Shown here piece by piece: positions 1,324 to 30,065 of a stretch of DNA of 64,000 bases (position 1 is the stretch's first letter; each line of letters starts with the position of its first letter). The translations under genes were made by a program, and so were the position numbers. Origin of the DNA: a virus; IMG/VR virus record IMGVR_UViG_3300036846_000555, positions 1 to 64,000 of that record; one strand, given 5' to 3'. The notes under the pieces are model-generated. The model had not been told where the DNA came from and did no database searches. It saw only the letters and a list, made by a program, of their open reading frames with translations.

Positions 1324-1352
1324 TTGCGTAAGCGCACGTCGTGTGCTATCAT
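1324..1352 (+). promoter_or_regulatory. Extended -10 promoter with operator-like dyad
   Basis: TTGCGT (1324-1329), a 17-bp spacer, then TGC plus TATCAT (1347-1352). The spacer holds the dyad GCGCACG-t-CGTGTGC (1332-1346), which abuts the -10. This is the best-formed member of a family of about a dozen similar sites between 1.3 and 30 kb and it drives the gene at 1523. Confidence 0.8.
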
Positions 1353-4103: not shown

Positions 4104-4309
4104 GATGACTCCTGACGGTTGATGTGGTCACTGGACTGCAGGCGCGCTAGGCCTGACGACGGCCCGACCTACCCGGGGCTCCTGCCCCTCACTTCGGAGC
4201 GCGCTGAGTGTGGTCCGTGGGTACTCCTCCTTTGGTTGCGTTCAGGGCGGCCCCGAGTACTCCGGTTTTCGGGACCGCCCGTGCTGGCACAGCGCCGGGC
4301 ACTGTAACA
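4104..4309. other. Divergent intergenic region with inverted repeat
   Basis: About 200 bp separate the minus-strand wall-enzyme operon from the plus-strand small-gene operon. A 12-bp inverted repeat with one mismatch (4245-4256 with 4269-4280, GGGCGGCCCCGA/TCGGGACCGCCC) lies here and could terminate or regulate either direction. No credible ORF with a ribosome site is present. The minus-strand promoter should be here but no clear -10 was found. Confidence 0.5.
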
Positions 4310-4325
4310 CGATGCGCGCTATCCT
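4307..4325 (+). promoter_or_regulatory. Promoter of the operator family
   Basis: AACACGATGCGCGC followed by TATCCT (4320-4325), then a ribosome context CCGACCGAGGAGG at 4344-4356 before ATG 4362. The TG of the extended -10 is CG here, and no stem-loop follows, so it is a weaker member. Confidence 0.6.
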
Positions 4326-4361
4326 GTACCAAACCGATCCCGACCGACCGAGGAGGACTGG

Positions 4362-7845: not shown

Positions 7846-8033
7846 TCATCGAGCTGAGCCATCCGTCGGATCCGCGCTTTCTCCTCGTGGCGGCACCGCC
7901 CGATCGCGTCGCGGTCGAGGATCTCGGAGCGTGGCGCTACGGCAAGCCGCTGATCCTCGCGCCTGGAGAGCCCGACCTGGTCTACGCGCAGCCGAATGGG
8001 CCCGGCACCGATTGGGTGCGCCCGGAGCGATGA
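7842..8033 (+). CDS. Hypothetical protein, 63 aa
   Basis: ATGATC coupled start. IIELSHPSDPRFLLVAAPPDRVAVEDLGAWRYGKPLILAPG; short beta-rich domain. It ends inside the methyltransferase start (CGATGACC). Confidence 0.6.
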   Translation: MIIELSHPSDPRFLLVAAPPDRVAVEDLGAWRYGKPLILAPGEPDLVYAQPNGPGTDWVRPER

Positions 8034-8545
8034 CCGCCGCCGTCGCGCTGATCAACCCGAAGTTTCCGCGCAACGTCGGCAACGCGTTGCGCGCCTGTTC
8101 GAACTTCGGAGCGCGCTACTGCGCGTGGACGCCGGACCGCGTCGAGGCGCCGGAGGACTGGCCGTCCGGCGAGCGTCTGCCGCGCGAGGAGCGCATGCGC
8201 CTGTACGAGGACGTCACCGTGATCACGCACAGCCGGACGATCATCGTCACCCGGTTCGCGGCGATGGGGTTCACGCCGGTCGCGATCGAGGTCCGCGACA
8301 GCGCCGAGCGCCTCCCCGAGTTCGTCCACCCCGACCGGGCGATCTACGTGTTCGGCCCCGAGGACGGGTCGCTGGACCGCGGGATCCTGTCGGCGTGCCA
8401 TCGGTTTGTGGTGATACCCGCGAGCAACTGCCTGAATCTCGCCGCGGCGGTCAACGTCGTGCTCTACGACCGCGCCGCCAAGGACGCGCGCCGCGCGGCA
8501 CGGATGCCGCGAGCGACGACCGCCTACATGCGGGTTGAGGGTTGA
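8030..8545 (+). CDS. SpoU/TrmH-family RNA 2'-O-methyltransferase
   Basis: 171 residues from the coupled ATG 8030. It carries the three SPOUT motifs: N-terminal NPKFPRNVGNALRACSNFG, the middle YVFGPEDGSLDRGI, and the C-terminal VVIPASNCLNLAAAVNVVLYD that forms the trefoil-knot SAM site. The Arg in motif 1 and the Asn in motif 3 are present. It lacks the extra N-terminal RNA-binding domain of rRNA enzymes and is of the short TrmH/TrmL size. Target is probably tRNA or rRNA ribose. It sits near the end of the small-gene operon, so it may protect phage or host tRNAs. Confidence 0.85.
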   Translation: MTAAVALINPKFPRNVGNALRACSNFGARYCAWTPDRVEAPEDWPSGERLPREERMRLYEDVTVITHSRTIIVTRFAAMGFTPVAIEVRDSAERLPEFVHPDRAIYVFGPEDGSLDRGILSACHRFVVIPASNCLNLAAAVNVVLYDRAAKDARRAARMPRATTAYMRVEG

Positions 8546-8740: not shown

Positions 8741-8764
8741 GAAGCGCACGACGCGTGCTAGAGT
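8741..8764 (+). promoter_or_regulatory. Operator-family promoter of collagen-like gene
   Basis: AAGCGCACGACGCGTGC followed by TAGAGT (8759-8764), with the TGC extension at 8756-8758. The dyad GCGCACG-a-CGCGTGC is nearly symmetric. A 93-bp leader without the usual hairpin or CCGACCGAGGAG leads to ATG 8858. Confidence 0.65.
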
Positions 8765-10671: not shown

Positions 10672-13485
10672 ATGGACCTCGTCACCATCGCGCGCGAGAA
10701 CGCAACGCTCCGCGAGGAGTTTCTGCGCCGTGGACTGGTCCCCGAGGACGAGCTGGACCAGATCGGCTGGGTGTCGCACTCCGACCTTGACCTGTGGCAG
10801 GAGGCGGGCGTCCTGGAGCTGGGCGTCACCGGATTGCAGGAGACGTGGGGTCACAGCGTCCCCGGCGGCATCCGCGTCGGTAGCGGGCATCACGGCGCGT
10901 GGGGGCTCGGCGCGCTCAGCGGCGACATCTTCAACCGGCGGATCCTGCGCGGCCGCGGCGGCCGGTTCGCCGGAAGCCTCGGCGGCAAGTCAGAGGTGCC
11001 CGGCAAGAGTCACAACCGGCGCATCAAGAACATCCTGCACCCGCCGCGCGTCTCGCGCGTCGAACATCCCGGCGCCAAGAAGGACGAGCCGATCGCGACA
11101 GTCAAGACCGCCCGGGGCATCGGACTGCCATCCAAGAAGCTGAACGTGTACGCCACCCCGCCCGCCGCGCGCGCAGGCGAGCCGCGCGCCACGCCGGGGC
11201 TGCCGGAGCGGATGAGCGCCGCACAGGCCCAGGCCGAGTTCGTCAGCCAGGCCGAGCCCGCCGCCGGGCATCCCGACGAGCTGCACGCGCTCGGCCGCGA
11301 ACGGCTGCGGCGCATGGCCGACGCGGAGCACAAGGCGGGCGTCAGCGCCTGGAAAGCCGGTGACACCGAGGCCGCGAACAAGCATCACCGCAAGGCGGGC
11401 GAGCACATGGCGGCGATCCAGAACCCCGACGAGACGCTCAAGGCGGGCACCGCCGAGATCTACGAGCGGCGCACCAAGCGGCTGGAGAAGCGGATCTCGC
11501 GCACCGTCAAGAAGGCCGGGAAGCAGAAGCGCACCCCGGCCGCCCGCCAGCCGCGCGGCCCGAACGACCTGAGCGCCGCCGAAGCGCAGTTCAACGACGC
11601 CGGACGCGTATCGCAGAAGACGCTGCTGGCCTACGTCGAGCAGGCCGCGAGCCAGCCGTCGACCGCGTCGATGTACCGCGACGCGAACGGCAACTACCAC
11701 CCGTCGCGCGCGGCCTTGCACGCCGACATCATCGACAAGCTGATGCGCCAGCACGGCACCACGACGGTGATGAAGGACGGCGTGCCGGTCGAGGAGGACG
11801 CCGGGCTGAGCGGCACCACGCCTGCGCTGAAGCCGCCCGCAGACGGCAAGCCGACCGTGATCTTCACCGGCGGCGGCTACGCGGCCGGGAAAGGCGGCGT
11901 CGTCAAGCAGCTCAAGCGGCAGGGTCAGTGGCCCGACGACGCGCTGCTGCTCGACCCCGACCTGATCAAGGCCGAGCTGCCGGAGTTCCAGAACGCCGCG
12001 ATGGACGACCCGGAAGCGAACCTGCGCGTCTACGCCGAGGCGTGGGACATCGCGCAGCAGGCGATGAAGATGGCGCAGGAGCGCGGCCTGAACGTCGTCG
12101 TCGACGGGATCACCGACACCAGCCCCGACGAGGTCGCTCAGCGGGTCAAGACCTTCACCGACAAGGGCTACGTCAACCCGCGGATCATCTACGTCAGCGT
12201 CCCGACCGACGAGGCGATCAAGCGCGCGAAGGGCCGCGCCGCGAAGGCCGAGACCCCGGCGGACCGGCGGATGATCCCCGAGGTCATCATGCGCGCCGTT
12301 CACCGCGACGTGTCCGCGACGCTGCCGGGCGTCATATCGCGCGCGAAGGACATGGGCGCCAGCGTCCAGGTGTACGACACCAATCAGGGCATCGACGAGA
12401 AGAGCGGCAAGTTCAACCCGCCGAAGCTGGTCGCCGAGGCGACACCGGAGGGCAACACCCACTACCCGGACCCCGAGGGCTACCAGACGATCCTGAACAA
12501 GGCGCAGGAGACGATCCCGAACGTGCCGGAGGTCGAGGCGCCTCAGCGTGGCGCGTGGCAGACCGGCGGGCAGATCACGTCGATCGACAAGGCGGCCGAG
12601 AAGGCCGTCGGCCGGGATCTGGCAGCGGCGACGCCGCACGCGCCAGAGGCGCATCGCGGCCAGCCGACCAGCGACGTCGGGGAGCTGTCCAGAATCGCGA
12701 AACAGCAGGGTCATCCCGCCTACCAGGCGCTGATGAACGGGGTCGCGGACGCGCTCGGCGCGACCGTTCACGACACCTCGGCGGGCAAGTCGTTCGGCGA
12801 CACCGGCAAGGACATCGCCGCGAACATGGGCCAGACGCACGTGATCATCGCGCCGCCCAAGGACGAAAAACGCGCGCTGGCGAAGGTCGCCGGGCTCGGC
12901 CAGGCCAACAACGTGACCGACCTGCACGACATGGTGCGCGGAACCGTGACCGTGCCGACGGCGCAGGATCTGCCGACCGCGATGGCGAAGATCCGGCGGG
13001 AGATGGAGCAGCAGGGCTGGGCGGTCGAGAACGTCAATCCGCGGCTGGTCGACGAGAGCGGCTCCAAGCGATCCGAGGCCAACGGCTACGGCGACACGCA
13101 ACTGATCCTCCGCGGGCCCAAGAGCGCGGGCGGCATGCTGGCCGAGCTGCAGCTCACCACCAATCCGATGTGGTGGGCCAAGGAGGTCGGGCCCGGCCAC
13201 GATCTCTACAAGCTGGAGCGCCAGGTCACGACTCGCGCATCGGCTGAGAAGCGCAAGCCGACCAACGAGGAGTCAAAGCTCGCGGGCGAGATCCAGAAGG
13301 CCGCCAAGCCGATGTATGACCGGGCGTGGGGCGCGTCGCTGAGCGGCGGCATCCACGGCCACCCGGACGTCGTCCTGGGCGATGGGAAGGAGCGGTCGGC
13401 GAGCGTCGCCAAGATCAAGGAGCTGGGCCGCAGAACGGCCGGGCTGATCAGCGGAACGCCAGCAGCAGCGAGGGCGGCCGCCTGA
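10672..13485 (+). CDS. Large multidomain protein with zeta-toxin-like kinase and RelA/SpoT-like domain
   Basis: 937 residues. The N-terminal third is helical, basic and low complexity, and includes the phage-structural-type motif RGRGGRFAGS near residue 95. Residues about 395-575 form a zeta-toxin/PezT-type P-loop kinase: GGGYAAGKGG (Walker A), LLLDPDLIKAELPE, VVVDGITDTSPDEV and RRMIPEVIMRAVHRD. Zeta toxins phosphorylate UDP-amino-sugars. Residues about 745-855 (DMVRGTVTV, ANGYGDTQLILRG, AELQLTTNPMWW, GHDLYKLERQ) look like a RelA/SpoT nucleotidyltransferase fold, less certain. The first gene of its block, it may be a virion-carried effector or polymorphic toxin; that is inference. No portal or MuF domain is recognisable. 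Confidence 0.7.
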   Translation: MDLVTIARENATLREEFLRRGLVPEDELDQIGWVSHSDLDLWQEAGVLELGVTGLQETWGHSVPGGIRVGSGHHGAWGLGALSGDIFNRRILRGRGGRFAGSLGGKSEVPGKSHNRRIKNILHPPRVSRVEHPGAKKDEPIATVKTARGIGLPSKKLNVYATPPAARAGEPRATPGLPERMSAAQAQAEFVSQAEPAAGHPDELHALGRERLRRMADAEHKAGVSAWKAGDTEAANKHHRKAGEHMAAIQNPDETLKAGTAEIYERRTKRLEKRISRTVKKAGKQKRTPAARQPRGPNDLSAAEAQFNDAGRVSQKTLLAYVEQAASQPSTASMYRDANGNYHPSRAALHADIIDKLMRQHGTTTVMKDGVPVEEDAGLSGTTPALKPPADGKPTVIFTGGGYAAGKGGVVKQLKRQGQWPDDALLLDPDLIKAELPEFQNAAMDDPEANLRVYAEAWDIAQQAMKMAQERGLNVVVDGITDTSPDEVAQRVKTFTDKGYVNPRIIYVSVPTDEAIKRAKGRAAKAETPADRRMIPEVIMRAVHRDVSATLPGVISRAKDMGASVQVYDTNQGIDEKSGKFNPPKLVAEATPEGNTHYPDPEGYQTILNKAQETIPNVPEVEAPQRGAWQTGGQITSIDKAAEKAVGRDLAAATPHAPEAHRGQPTSDVGELSRIAKQQGHPAYQALMNGVADALGATVHDTSAGKSFGDTGKDIAANMGQTHVIIAPPKDEKRALAKVAGLGQANNVTDLHDMVRGTVTVPTAQDLPTAMAKIRREMEQQGWAVENVNPRLVDESGSKRSEANGYGDTQLILRGPKSAGGMLAELQLTTNPMWWAKEVGPGHDLYKLERQVTTRASAEKRKPTNEESKLAGEIQKAAKPMYDRAWGASLSGGIHGHPDVVLGDGKERSASVAKIKELGRRTAGLISGTPAAARAAA

Positions 13486-14222: not shown

Positions 14223-14514
14223 CTGCCCGCCGGGTCACCCGGACGAGTTCGTGGGACGGCCGGTCAACCCGGCCGAGCAGATTCGTGTTCTGCTGGTCCG
14301 CAAGAAGCGTCAGGGGATCATGGACTGGAGCCGCGTGTGGCCGTGGGCGGTCGGCCGCGTGCGCTGGCCGCATGACCGCGAGGAGCGGCACGAGTGGAAG
14401 CGGACGATCATGTGGGCGGAGGTGGCGTTCCGGTCGGCGTACGAGGGCGAGCACGTGATCGTGGACATGAGCGCGCTGATCATGTTTGAGCTGCGGATCA
14501 CCGAAGACGCGTAA
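14185..14514 (+). CDS. Hypothetical protein, 109 aa
   Basis: GTG 14185 lies within the end of the upstream gene, with GGAACGGAAGGGG before it. LLVRKKRQGIMDWSRVWPWAVGRVRWPHDREERHEWKRTIMWAE; basic and Trp-rich middle, then EHVIVDMSALIMFELRI. Unrecognised. Starting inside the neighbour by 38 bp suggests translational coupling. Confidence 0.6.
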   Translation: MAVAERPGSPAPDCPPGHPDEFVGRPVNPAEQIRVLLVRKKRQGIMDWSRVWPWAVGRVRWPHDREERHEWKRTIMWAEVAFRSAYEGEHVIVDMSALIMFELRITEDA

Positions 14515-14571
14515 GCACACATCGCGCGCTTAGGTGTGCTATCCTTGGTGGTGACCACCGACCGAGGAGGA
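14514..14571 (+). promoter_or_regulatory. Operator-family promoter, wide-dyad variant
   Basis: AGCACAC (14514-14520) and GTGTGCT (14534-14540) are an exact 7-bp inverted repeat with 13 bp between. The right arm runs into TATCCT (14540-14545) with TGC extension. GGTGG-tga-CCACC forms a small stem-loop, and CCGACCGAGGAGG (14558-14570) precedes GTG 14576. Confidence 0.7.
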
Positions 14572-16158: not shown

Positions 16159-16187
16159 TTGAACTAGCGCGCGATGTGTGCTAACCT
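16159..16187 (+). promoter_or_regulatory. Operator-family promoter of tRNA-Glu transcript
   Basis: TTGAAC (16159-16164), a 17-bp spacer, then TGC plus TAACCT (16182-16187). The spacer has GCGCGATGTGTGC. A conserved AGGTGCGG and the stem GCGGTC/GGCCGC with loop GGAGTGA (16194-16212) follow. Confidence 0.78.
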
Positions 16188-16212
16188 TTAGGTGCGGTCG
16201 GAGTGAGGCCGC

Positions 16213-16439
16213 CGCCCCAGGAGGTCCCTCTCCGGAGTGGAGATCGAAAGCTGAGCGCCCGATCCACCGGGCCAGGGCTGGAGATCCCGGGGAGTCCGGG
16301 CTCAGTTCCCGGATGGGGCACCCAGCAGGACAAGCTTGGATCAGTACCGGCCCTCTGGGCCCCAGATCCTCTGATCCAGCGGGGAACGGCCTCGTTAGGG
16401 CTCGGCGCCTGGCCAGCGTCCGGCCCGCCCGCTAACTGA
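16213..16439 (+). other. Non-coding leader before tRNA-Glu
   Basis: About 225 bp between the 5' stem-loop and the tRNA contain no ORF with a ribosome site, although frames stay open by chance. CCGGG-CTCAGTT-CCCGG near 16295 resembles a T-arm but breaks the TTCRA rule and has no matching acceptor. It may hold a second decayed tRNA or a processed leader. Confidence 0.4.
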
Positions 16440-16511
16440 GCCGCGTTCGTCTAGTGGTCAGGACGCCGCCCTCTCACGGCGGTAGCACGGGTTCGAACCC
16501 CGTACGCGGTG
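16440..16511 (+). tRNA. tRNA-Glu (anticodon CTC)
   Basis: A complete 72-nt cloverleaf: acceptor GCCGCGT/ACGCGGT (first pair G-T wobble), D-arm GTCT...GGAC, anticodon stem CCGCC/GGCGG with loop CTCTCAC giving anticodon CTC. The T-arm is ACGGG-TTCGAAC-CCCGT. CCA is not encoded. It is transcribed with the gene at 16535 from the promoter at 16159. It decodes GAG, the dominant Glu codon in this high-GC genome. Confidence 0.93.
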
Positions 16512-16534
16512 CCTTTGAATCGAGGAGACAACCG

Positions 16535-17166: not shown

Positions 17167-17227
17167 TAGCGCGCATCGTGTGCTATCCTGTAGGTGGGCC
17201 CAGAGAGGGCCCACACCGACCGAGGAG
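17167..17227 (+). promoter_or_regulatory. Complete expression cassette: dyad promoter, 5' hairpin, long ribosome site
   Basis: GCGCGCATCGTGTGC abuts TATCCT (17184-17189). GTGGGCCC (17194-17201) and GGGCCCAC (17207-17214) form a perfect 8-bp stem with loop AGAGA, starting at about +1. CCGACCGAGGAG (17216-17227) precedes ATG 17233 by 5 bp. This is the cleanest copy of the cassette. Confidence 0.8.
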
Positions 17228-17232
17228 CAGCG

Positions 17233-17418
17233 ATGGATTGGGGTTTCTACTTGCAGCCCGAGCCGCTGAGCGCGAGCGAGATGGCTGCCGTGCAGCACGC
17301 GGGACAGATCGACCGCGAGCGTCAGGCTGTCGAGCGCGCCCACCGGCGCGGCGACGAGCGTGCGCTGCGCCGGGCGCTGGCCCGCCTGCACGCGCGCGAG
17401 GAGAGGATCGAGCGATGA
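17233..17418 (+). CDS. Hypothetical helical protein, 61 aa
   Basis: ATG five bases after CCGACCGAGGAG. The sequence is a long charged helix (EMAAVQHAGQIDRERQAVERAHRRGDERALRRALARLHAREE). Likely a small coiled coil. ATGA overlap with the next gene. Confidence 0.7.
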   Translation: MDWGFYLQPEPLSASEMAAVQHAGQIDRERQAVERAHRRGDERALRRALARLHAREERIER

Positions 17419-17657: not shown

Positions 17658-17910
17658 GCGAGCGCTCTTCTTGATGCAGGACTACGCGGGCGGCACGCGC
17701 CAGCTCTACCGAGGCAAGAACCCCGGGATCGCCGAGGAGCGCAAGCGCGCCCTGATGCGCTCCGGCTGGCCCGCGAACACCTTCGTGACAGTGGAGGCCA
17801 TGAGCCTGGCCGAAGCTCACGACAAGGCGCAGGCGATCCTCTGGAAGCGCCTGCACATTGACGCACGTCGTGTGCTAAAATCAGAGCAGACAACGACCGA
17901 GGAGGAGTGA
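17650..17910 (+). CDS. Hypothetical protein, 86 aa
   Basis: ATG 17650 overlaps the previous gene by 8 bp. FLMQDYAGGTRQLYRGKNPGIAEERKRALMRSGW, then AEAHDKAQAILWKRLHIDARRVL. Its last codons contain the next promoter, so the C-terminus is dictated by an overlapping operator. Confidence 0.6.
   Translation: MARRALFLMQDYAGGTRQLYRGKNPGIAEERKRALMRSGWPANTFVTVEAMSLAEAHDKAQAILWKRLHIDARRVLKSEQTTTEEE
17861..17907 (+). promoter_or_regulatory. Operator-family promoter inside a coding end
   Basis: ACGCACGTCGTGTGC precedes TAAAAT (17876-17881), the closest to consensus of all the -10 boxes. No stem-loop follows; CGACCGAGGAGGAG (17894-17907) serves ATG 17913. Confidence 0.75.
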
Positions 17911-21918: not shown

Positions 21919-22373
21919 TGCCCGACGCTCTGGCGCAGGCGGTCGCAGACCGGGTCGGCGCGAAGACGTCGACCGAGTTCGTCCGGGCGCGCGCCCGCGA
22001 GCGGGTTCTGCGCGAGTGGCAGTGGCTCGACGAGCACGCCGAGGAGTGGCTGCCGACCGCGCTGCAGGAGTCCACCAAGACGGCCGGGTACAGCGTCACG
22101 CCGTCACCGTTCTCGCGGAGCAAGACGAGCAACTGGATCGCTCGGCTCGGCGGGCTCCCGGCGTACATCCAGAACGTCGCGAAGGGCATCATGAAGTCCG
22201 GCAAGTCCGAGTCGGAGGCGATCGCGTCGGCGATCGCCGTCATGAAGCGATGGGCGGCCGGGGGCGGCAAGGTGAGCGCCGAGGTGAAGGCGGCGGCAGC
22301 GAAGGCGCTCAGTCAGTGGGAGGCCCTCAAGGCCAAGAACGCCACGAAGAAGGGCGTCAAAGCCGCCGCATAA
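21918..22373 (+). CDS. Phage structural-type helical protein, 151 aa
   Basis: ATG at 21918 overlaps the previous stop. Residues 10-35 repeat the shared helix (GAKTSTEFVRARARERVLRE). The rest (NWIARLGGLPAYIQNVAKGIMKSG, then ESEAIASAIAVMKRWAAGGGKVS) is a helix-rich domain often seen beside phage head genes. The last of three genes with the shared segment. Confidence 0.65.
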   Translation: MPDALAQAVADRVGAKTSTEFVRARARERVLREWQWLDEHAEEWLPTALQESTKTAGYSVTPSPFSRSKTSNWIARLGGLPAYIQNVAKGIMKSGKSESEAIASAIAVMKRWAAGGGKVSAEVKAAAAKALSQWEALKAKNATKKGVKAAA

Positions 22374-22394
22374 GCGCACGACGTGTGCTATACT
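22372..22394 (+). promoter_or_regulatory. Operator-family promoter of an ORF-less transcript
   Basis: AAGCGCACGACGTGTGC abuts TATACT (22389-22394), with TGC extension. No -35 TTG. The downstream 190 bp carry no gene. Confidence 0.75.
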
Positions 22395-22400
22395 CAAAGC

Positions 22401-22581
22401 GTCGGGTGAGAGAAGGGTTCTCCCCGATTGGCGCGAGTCGCCGGTGGGGGCCCAGCTTCGATCCCAGGCGTGGGTGAGCGGCCCCGGCGTCAGGCTCGCG
22501 GCCCTTGAACGGGTGGCTGACAGAGAGCCCGCTCCGATCCCTGGTCCAACCGACTTCACCAGGCTGAGAGAAGAGCGGGCT
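22401..22581 (+). ncRNA. Candidate small structured RNA
   Basis: It starts at the predicted transcription start of the promoter at 22372. GAGA-AGGGT-TCTC is a 5' hairpin like that of the leader at 1353. The 3' end is a nested stem: AGCCCGCTC (22526-22534) with GAGCGGGCT (22573-22581), enclosing CCTGGT/ACCAGG. It ends directly before the next promoter. No reading frame has a ribosome site (a 23-codon GTG frame at 22406 does not). Function unknown. Confidence 0.5.
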
Positions 22582-22589
22582 TCGGGCTA

Positions 22590-22650
22590 AGCACGCATCG
22601 TGTGCTACAATGTAGGTGCGGCCACGAGGCCGTGATCCCCGACCGAGGAC
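22590..22650 (+). promoter_or_regulatory. Complete expression cassette
   Basis: AGCACGCATCGTGTGC, then TACAAT (22606-22611), the AGGTGCGG start, stem CGGCC-acga-GGCCG (22619-22632) and CCGACCGAGGA just before ATG 22654. Confidence 0.8.
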
Positions 22651-23189: not shown

Positions 23190-23395
23190 GCCCCACCGAA
23201 GAGCAGAACGACCGCTTCGACGCGGTCCTTGACCGGCTCGACGATCGCTTCGTCGCGCGGGTGCTCGGCCTTGGCGGCTACGGCGCCGACTACGAGGCGA
23301 TCATCGTCCGCTTCGACAGCTTTTCGCAGGCGCGGGCTGAGCGGATTCTGCGGGCGCTGGAGGGCGAGGCCCGCCGGATCCAGGGATTGTGGTAA
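23186..23395 (+). CDS. Hypothetical protein, 69 aa
   Basis: Coupled ATGAGC start. EEQNDRFDAVLDRLDDRFVARVLGLGGYGADYEAIIVRF is helical, then FSQARAERILRALEGEARRI. Acidic; unrecognised. Confidence 0.6.
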   Translation: MSPTEEQNDRFDAVLDRLDDRFVARVLGLGGYGADYEAIIVRFDSFSQARAERILRALEGEARRIQGLW

Positions 23396-23457
23396 CGCAC
23401 GATGTGTGCTACAATTGAGGTGCGGTCAGAGAGTGGCCGCGACACCGACCGAGGAGC
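23387..23457 (+). promoter_or_regulatory. Complete expression cassette with -35
   Basis: TTGTGG (23387-23392), 17 bp, TGC plus TACAAT (23410-23415). The dyad is ACGCACGATGTGTGC. The stem GCGGTCA/TGGCCGC (23422-23428 and 23434-23440, one G-T pair) has loop GAGAG. CCGACCGAGGAG ends at about 23456, before the TTG start at 23462. Confidence 0.82.
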
Positions 23458-30000: not shown

Positions 30001-30065
30001 AGCGCACATCTTGTGCTACAATGTAGGTGCGGGCCGGAGAGCCCGCCCCCCCCGACCGAGGAGGC
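30001..30065 (+). promoter_or_regulatory. Complete expression cassette
   Basis: AGCGCACATCTTGTGC abuts TACAAT (30017-30022). AGGTGCGG follows, then the stem GCGGGC (30029-30034) and GCCCGC (30041-30046) with loop CGGAGA. CCGACCGAGGAGG precedes ATG 30071. The dyad's centre is altered (ATCTT). Confidence 0.8.

Follow-up and report, generated by a model that had tools for sequence, protein, structure and literature searches.

A covarying RNA hairpin at the predicted 5' ends of many transcripts in a family of uncultured phages

Introduction

Actinophage repeats associated with gene starts have been without an agreed function since 2011. The SAS and ESAS elements of cluster K phages (PMC3203893; Adephagia, PMC11373665) are repeated at gene starts throughout a phage genome, include an extended Shine-Dalgarno sequence whose flanks do not pair with 16S rRNA, are joined on a subset of genes by an upstream inverted repeat and a promoter, and are enriched outside the structural genes. 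All these traits recur in the elements described here. The original prediction for the present DNA had likened them to cluster K, and its view of the layout is apt, but in cluster K the evidence that the inverted repeats fold into mRNA hairpins was reported to be scant (Pope et al. 2011, PMC3203893). A different precedent is provided by the 5'-terminal stem-loops of Escherichia coli ompA and papA (PMC3997798), whose stem lies at or within a few nt of the 5' end, a position predicted also for the hairpins reported below, and which share with these hairpins tolerance of sequence change and a ribosome-binding site that is not occluded.

Results and discussion

The phage contig and its relatives

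The window analysed here (64,000 nucleotides) comprises bases 1-64000, or about half, of a 122,349-bp contig from an uncultured IMG/VR phage whose genome is 68% G+C. Its DNA matched none of 50,697 phage records, and for its capsid, primase and terminase the identity to cultured phages amounts to 26-31%. The best matches to the primase come from Arthrobacter and Gordonia phages (about 30% identity), and this similarity, judged together with the G+C content, suggests an actinobacterial host. Relatives were gathered by a capsid search and a promoter-pattern search, and include two contigs of about the same length (G002, 125 kb; G008, 122 kb), three in the range 105-110 kb (G009, G010 and G016) and approximately 25 fragments. 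All contigs are metagenomic and the gene calls are our own. Because several relatives share one metagenome, independence between leaders is incomplete, and the arm-swap test confined to orthologues (see below) is the best guard against this. Neither the 16-kb region nor the cassette has a DNA match in the cultured phages searched, none of which carries the hairpin/promoter cassette.

Among other genes of the contig, that at window 10672-13485 encodes a protein of 937 aa that includes a kinase domain of the zeta-toxin type (Pfam PF06414) and is present in all five large relatives. A SpoU-type RNA methylase (window 8030-8545) is 98% identical in G002 and was not found in G008, G009, G010 or G016, and a 1029-aa protein (contig 96757-99846) matches tRNA nucleotidyltransferase and HD-type phosphohydrolase families.

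A repeated promoter and its candidate regulators

Directly upstream of every hairpin named below lies a promoter in which a 19-bp dyad, TAGCRCACGWYGTGTGCTA, is fused to an extended -10 element, TGYGCTANNNT. This promoter/operator, which is absent from the original prediction, makes the sites a regulon. Across 188 unique copies, information spans positions -29 to -7, the dyad is centred at approximately -20 with its right end forming the extended -10 (TG(C)TANNNT), and no conserved -35 is present. A weight-matrix scan finds 20-30 promoters per large contig and 0-3 in reversed sequence; at scores above 17, the 122-kb contig contains 27 sites, and the reversed sequence used as a control contains none. 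Related uncultured soil phages carry about 20-30 copies per genome, and at nearly half of these the predicted mRNA starts with a hairpin. Matches to the promoter pattern in bacterial and archaeal genomes were scattered over unrelated phyla, and these we read as chance.

Given that the dyad is held in a fixed register with the -10, we infer that the copies form a phage-wide regulon under one dyad-binding regulator. Two products of the same gene cluster are candidates for this role. gp101 (contig 76,537-76,800, or from 76,459 with an upstream ATG) is HTH_17/MerR-like, occurs in all six large contigs and has the dyad in its own promoter, followed by a leader that is very short; gp105 (contig 77,652-78,224) passes the Pfam threshold for membership of the Mor activator family. 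Since G016 has variants of both the dyad (AGCTCAC...GTGTGCT) and the extended Shine-Dalgarno (CCGACCAAGGAG), both elements drift by phage. No promoter of this family occurs downstream of 30001 in the structural gene block (window 30000-64000), and the late genes therefore probably use another promoter type. Neither a tyrosine integrase nor a large serine recombinase was found in searches of the contig and five relatives, which makes a lysogeny role for the dyad sites doubtful.

Sites in the window

All sites are on the plus strand. At 17168..17189, the dyad AGCGCGCATCGTGTGCT overlaps the extended -10 TGCTATCCT (weight-matrix score 30). There follow an 8-bp hairpin, GTGGGCCC-AGAGA-GGGCCCAC, at 17194..17214 (covariance-model match 17190-17217, E=1.1e-6, as a member of the training set) and the extended Shine-Dalgarno CCGACCGAGGAG at 17216..17227, ahead of an ATG at 17233. 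Three further promoters combine the dyad with the -10 sequence TACAAT. That at 22590..22611 precedes a 7-bp hairpin, TGCGGCC-ACGA-GGCCGTG (22617..22634; E=0.047, not a training member), and CCGACCGAGGAC (22639..22650; ATG 22654); that at 23394..23415 precedes TGCGGTCA-GAGAG-TGGCCGCG, which includes a G-U pair (23421..23441), and CCGACCGAGGAG (23445..23456; TTG 23462); and that at 30001..30022 precedes GCGGGC-CGGAGA-GCCCGC (30029..30046) and CCGACCGAGGAG (30052..30063; ATG 30071). A fifth hairpin, GCGGTC-GGAGTGA-GGCCGC (16194..16212; E=4e-4, likewise outside the training set), follows a dyad promoter with the -10 sequence TAACCT (16166..16187), which drives a non-coding leader upstream of tRNA-Glu.

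All five stems that had been proposed, at 17194, 22619, 23422, 30029 and 16194, are therefore present, the second and third with the slightly different bounds just given. Some details required correction. The supposedly conserved start reads AGGTGGGC at 17194, not AGGTGCGG. The purine-rich loops AGAGA, GAGAG, CGGAGA and GGAGTGA are as described, but the loop at 22617 is ACGA and so not purine-only. The extended Shine-Dalgarno attributed to four hairpin sites is exact at three (17216, 23445 and 30052), whereas the 22619 leader has CCGACCGAGGAC; at the additional sites it is exact at 14558 and 4344, whereas 1506 and 17894 read ACGACCGAGGAG. Finally, no ORF follows the hairpin at 16194; downstream of it lies non-coding sequence that extends towards tRNA-Glu (16440-16513).

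Other promoters in the window depart from this arrangement. The extended -10 TGTGCTATCCT at 14535..14545 has its dyad displaced upstream (14514..14530), and the smaller stem expected before 14558 can be read in the sequence as GGTGG-TGA-CCACC (14547..14559), near the predicted +1 and ahead of CCGACCGAGGAG (14558..14569; GTG 14576). The promoter at 17860..17881 is of the hairpin-less class (extended Shine-Dalgarno 17894-17905, ATG 17913) and has hairpin-less orthologues in three other phages. A degenerate dyad promoter at 4304..4325 (score 13) is also hairpin-less, with its extended Shine-Dalgarno at 4344, and the promoter at 8743..8764 has neither a recognised hairpin start nor an extended Shine-Dalgarno.

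Non-coding transcripts

Several dyad promoters drive long leaders or transcripts without an ORF. A structured leader of approximately 170 nt follows the promoter at 1331..1352 before an extended Shine-Dalgarno at 1506 and an ATG at 1523, and this stretch (1331-1523) is possibly a regulatory leader or a small RNA. The promoter at 22373..22394 is followed by no ORF before the next promoter. The intervening stretch of about 200 nt (22373-22590) is highly conserved in G002, has a predicted strong fold and matches no Rfam entry; it is likely a new small RNA. The non-coding transcript at 16166-16440 begins with the hairpin, after which comes structured sequence that is also conserved in G008 and G010; in relatives this sequence ends in a T-arm-like GGGTTCGA motif upstream of tRNA-Glu. 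In this predicted transcript, and in its orthologues in G008 and G010, the hairpin heads an ORF-less RNA. A Y-RNA identity was considered for the neighbouring non-coding RNA and rejected, as the Rfam score is far below the cut-off and no Ro/TROVE gene was found. Apart from tRNA, no Rfam family scores above its gathering threshold in the window.

The hairpin is maintained as RNA pairing

In 42% of promoters, no more than 10 nt separate the -10 from the start of a hairpin; the corresponding figures are 8% for dinucleotide shuffles and 15% for a downstream control region. Shared consensus as a cause of pairing is removed by an arm-swap test, which exchanges the downstream halves of different leaders and in which arms pair with their own partners at 13.06 versus 10.43±0.17 when swapped; with swaps confined to orthologue groups, the values are 14.11 and 12.38±0.24. 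In both cases 0 of 5000 permutations reach the observed pairing, whereas a control placed 50 nt downstream gives a signal that is at most marginal (225/5000).

Because loop length varies, MAFFT could not align the 3' arms of orthologous leaders, and we therefore counted pairs in 18 leaders, with the swap test as the unselected control. In these leaders 96% of cells are paired, a percentage biased by their having been chosen for a hairpin, which affects covariation less. The covariation check suggested by the original prediction yields 14 double-change cells versus 2.8 in shuffles, and a covariation score of 0.458 versus 0.146±0.031 for shuffled and at most 0.093 for slid structures. The 30029 leader, for example, reads GCGGGC/GCCCGC in our phage and GCGGCC/GGCCGC in G002 (a double change), the 80961 leader reads TGCGGTC/GGCCGCA and TGTGGTC/GGCCACA in the same two phages, and one pair of the 23422 leader is U-G here, U-A in G002 and C-G in G008. 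Non-Watson-Crick stem cells comprise 26 G-U and 3 A-C (0 and 1 in the downstream control), all such cells being treated alike in stem finding. The covariance model built from the 18 leaders recovers untrained promoters, including those matched at 16188 and 22612, and the hairpin is retained at promoters whose dyad has moved away from the -10 (G010 at 76.7 kb, and G016). It is strongly supported that the stem is kept as RNA pairing, with sequence changing and structure conserved. Stems that vary in a compensatory way within a functional RNA element, as proposed earlier, thus find strong support in covarying orthologous leaders, in the strand asymmetry of G-U and A-C cells and in the conservation of leader class per gene described below.

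The loops are 3-8 nt long and 80% purine, and their sequence is not fixed: variants include ACGA, CTCGT, TAAG and AGTCC as well as the pentaloops AGAGA and GGAGA, and some are GNRA-like. No U-tract follows the hairpins, which instead lead into a C/A-rich linker and CCGACC. They are therefore not terminators, and an intrinsic terminator or attenuator is ruled out. Sequestration of the Shine-Dalgarno is excluded as well, since its predicted unpaired probability is 0.54 with the hairpin and 0.55 without it.

Leader classes and the predicted transcription start

The 191 unique leaders of the related contigs comprise 72 with a hairpin and an extended Shine-Dalgarno, 8 with a hairpin only, 66 with an extended Shine-Dalgarno only, 18 that are leaderless and 27 that are other or unclassified. 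In the leaderless set, the start codon lies mostly 6-8 nt after the -10, from which we infer a +1 at approximately 7 nt after the -10, where the stem would start. This predicted +1 falls inside the 5' arm in 72 of 80 hairpins and is G in 64 of the 72 leaders with hairpin and extended Shine-Dalgarno, compared with G or A equally in hairpin-less leaders. The predicted pairing of +1..+3 is 0.94 for hairpin leaders versus 0.30 for hairpin-less ones. The hairpin is predicted from these positions to be 5'-terminal, beginning at the first transcribed nucleotide. Leader class is concordant in 0.67 of orthologue pairs, versus 0.40±0.04 expected; hairpin use is gene-specific and conserved among orthologues. 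Hairpin promoters also score higher than hairpin-less promoters.

The sequence GACC[G/A]AGGAG precedes 118 of 145 promoter-proximal genes. It also precedes 90 of 1170 other genes, many within operons, and thus constitutes an independent element of translation starts that can occur apart from the promoter and the hairpin. In the window and its relatives, it marks approximately 8% of genes without a nearby dyad promoter, often at overlapping gene junctions. AGGAG alone can pair with the usual anti-Shine-Dalgarno; the CCGACC flank falls outside this pairing, like the flanks of the cluster K SAS.

Proposed function and its alternatives

The cassette runs from a promoter under a presumed regulator through a hairpin at the predicted +1 and a short C-rich linker to CCGACCGAGGAG and the start codon. 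We propose that the hairpin pairs the 5'-triphosphate end, such that a pyrophosphohydrolase and 5'-monophosphate-dependent RNases (RNase E/J type) would be unable to engage, and that the paired end would make some of the phage mRNAs longer-lived, with the ribosome-binding site still open. Secondary structure at the 5' end is known to block RppH and RNase E, both of which need single-stranded 5' ends (PMC3997798), and mycobacteria use an essential RNase E (PMC10641625); decay enzymes of this kind are assumed here for the host. We prefer this mechanism because a sequence-tolerant stem at +1 with an open ribosome site is the anatomy of known 5'-terminal stem-loops, and by this analogy we judge protection from 5'-end-dependent decay to be a somewhat probable function. 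Two observations count against it: simple end protection needs no purine-rich loop, and hairpin promoters head no longer operons than hairpin-less ones (p=0.91). A broader proposal, which we advance tentatively, is that the phage has a genome-wide system of 5'-hairpin caps, in which regulon genes are individually capped (hairpin plus extended Shine-Dalgarno), uncapped or leaderless, and mRNA lifetime and ribosome recruitment would be set per gene atop a shared transcriptional switch.

The main rival is a phage or host RNA-binding protein that reads the structure, with the hairpin as a translational operator or as an antitermination element of the N/boxB or put type. The short stems, the purine-rich loops, some of them boxB-sized pentaloops or GNRA-like, and a position at the transcript start that suits a nascent-RNA signal all speak for such a target. 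We nevertheless find it unlikely, given that loops vary in length and sequence, that the stem is almost unconstrained in sequence, that predicted access to the Shine-Dalgarno does not change, and that the leader sets contain no second conserved box, such as a boxA partner, between hairpin and extended Shine-Dalgarno. The hairpin might instead serve the initiation of translation, as a standby or spacer at the 5' end that stops the leader from folding back over the ribosome-binding site. In favour of this, 72 of 80 hairpins are tightly coupled to an extended Shine-Dalgarno (median gap to GACC, 5 nt). However, 66 leaders use the same element without a hairpin, its predicted access is the same either way, and one hairpin family heads the non-coding RNA before a tRNA, making this role quite improbable.

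The inverted repeat could also be a DNA operator for a dimeric protein, as cluster K repeats have been read, and a DNA dyad does adjoin it in the promoter. Yet it is pairing and not arm sequence that is conserved, displacement of the dyad leaves the hairpin in place, and G-U is tolerated where A-C is not, an asymmetry that is meaningful for the transcribed strand only and for which a double-stranded DNA site has no reason. This reading is already contradicted, and we reject it with little reservation. G+C-rich leaders fold easily, and their mean MFE is only modestly below that of the downstream control (-10.4 versus -9.6), as might be expected of chance folding where a promoter is duplicated in a genome of 68% G+C. 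However, every control (arm-swap, shuffle, slide and downstream) is separated from the observed leaders, which leaves such an artefact a negligible probability.

Comparison with known systems

The dyad sites and hairpins can be set beside those of other phage systems. In the cluster A phages L5 and Bxb1, with their stoperators and operator regulons, a single binding site recurs many times over the genome. The dyad sites are similarly numerous, but they are palindromic and locked in the -10 register. The lambda boxB/nut and HK022 put RNA elements are small phage-leader hairpins that are sequence-conserved and tied to antitermination, whereas the present hairpins are free in sequence and show no partner box. 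The cluster K SAS is a 13-bp GGGATAGGAGCCC, which differs from the consensus found here, CCGACCGAGGAG (CCGACCAAGGAG in G016), and our elements do not belong to that sequence family. Nor are they ESAS repeats, whose DNA half-sites are 17 bp long and conserved in sequence. In the present family the operator stands apart from the hairpin, which covaries as an RNA and lies at the predicted +1.

Layers that are blurred in cluster K are thus separated in the present phage family, and since promoter/operator, RNA hairpin and extended Shine-Dalgarno combine differently on orthologous genes, each is testable alone. The many hairpin leaders would also let 5'-end protection be tested on natural replicates in bacteria of high G+C, and would supply ready-made modular leaders whose 5' ends can be tuned. 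With ompA and papA they share conservation of structure rather than sequence and a ribosome-binding site predicted to be open. Stem-loops of that type are known as individual cellular leaders, whereas here one design recurs in approximately ten copies per phage genome, all belonging to one regulon. The novelty lies in this covarying RNA hairpin repeated on a whole regulon, and not in any single part.
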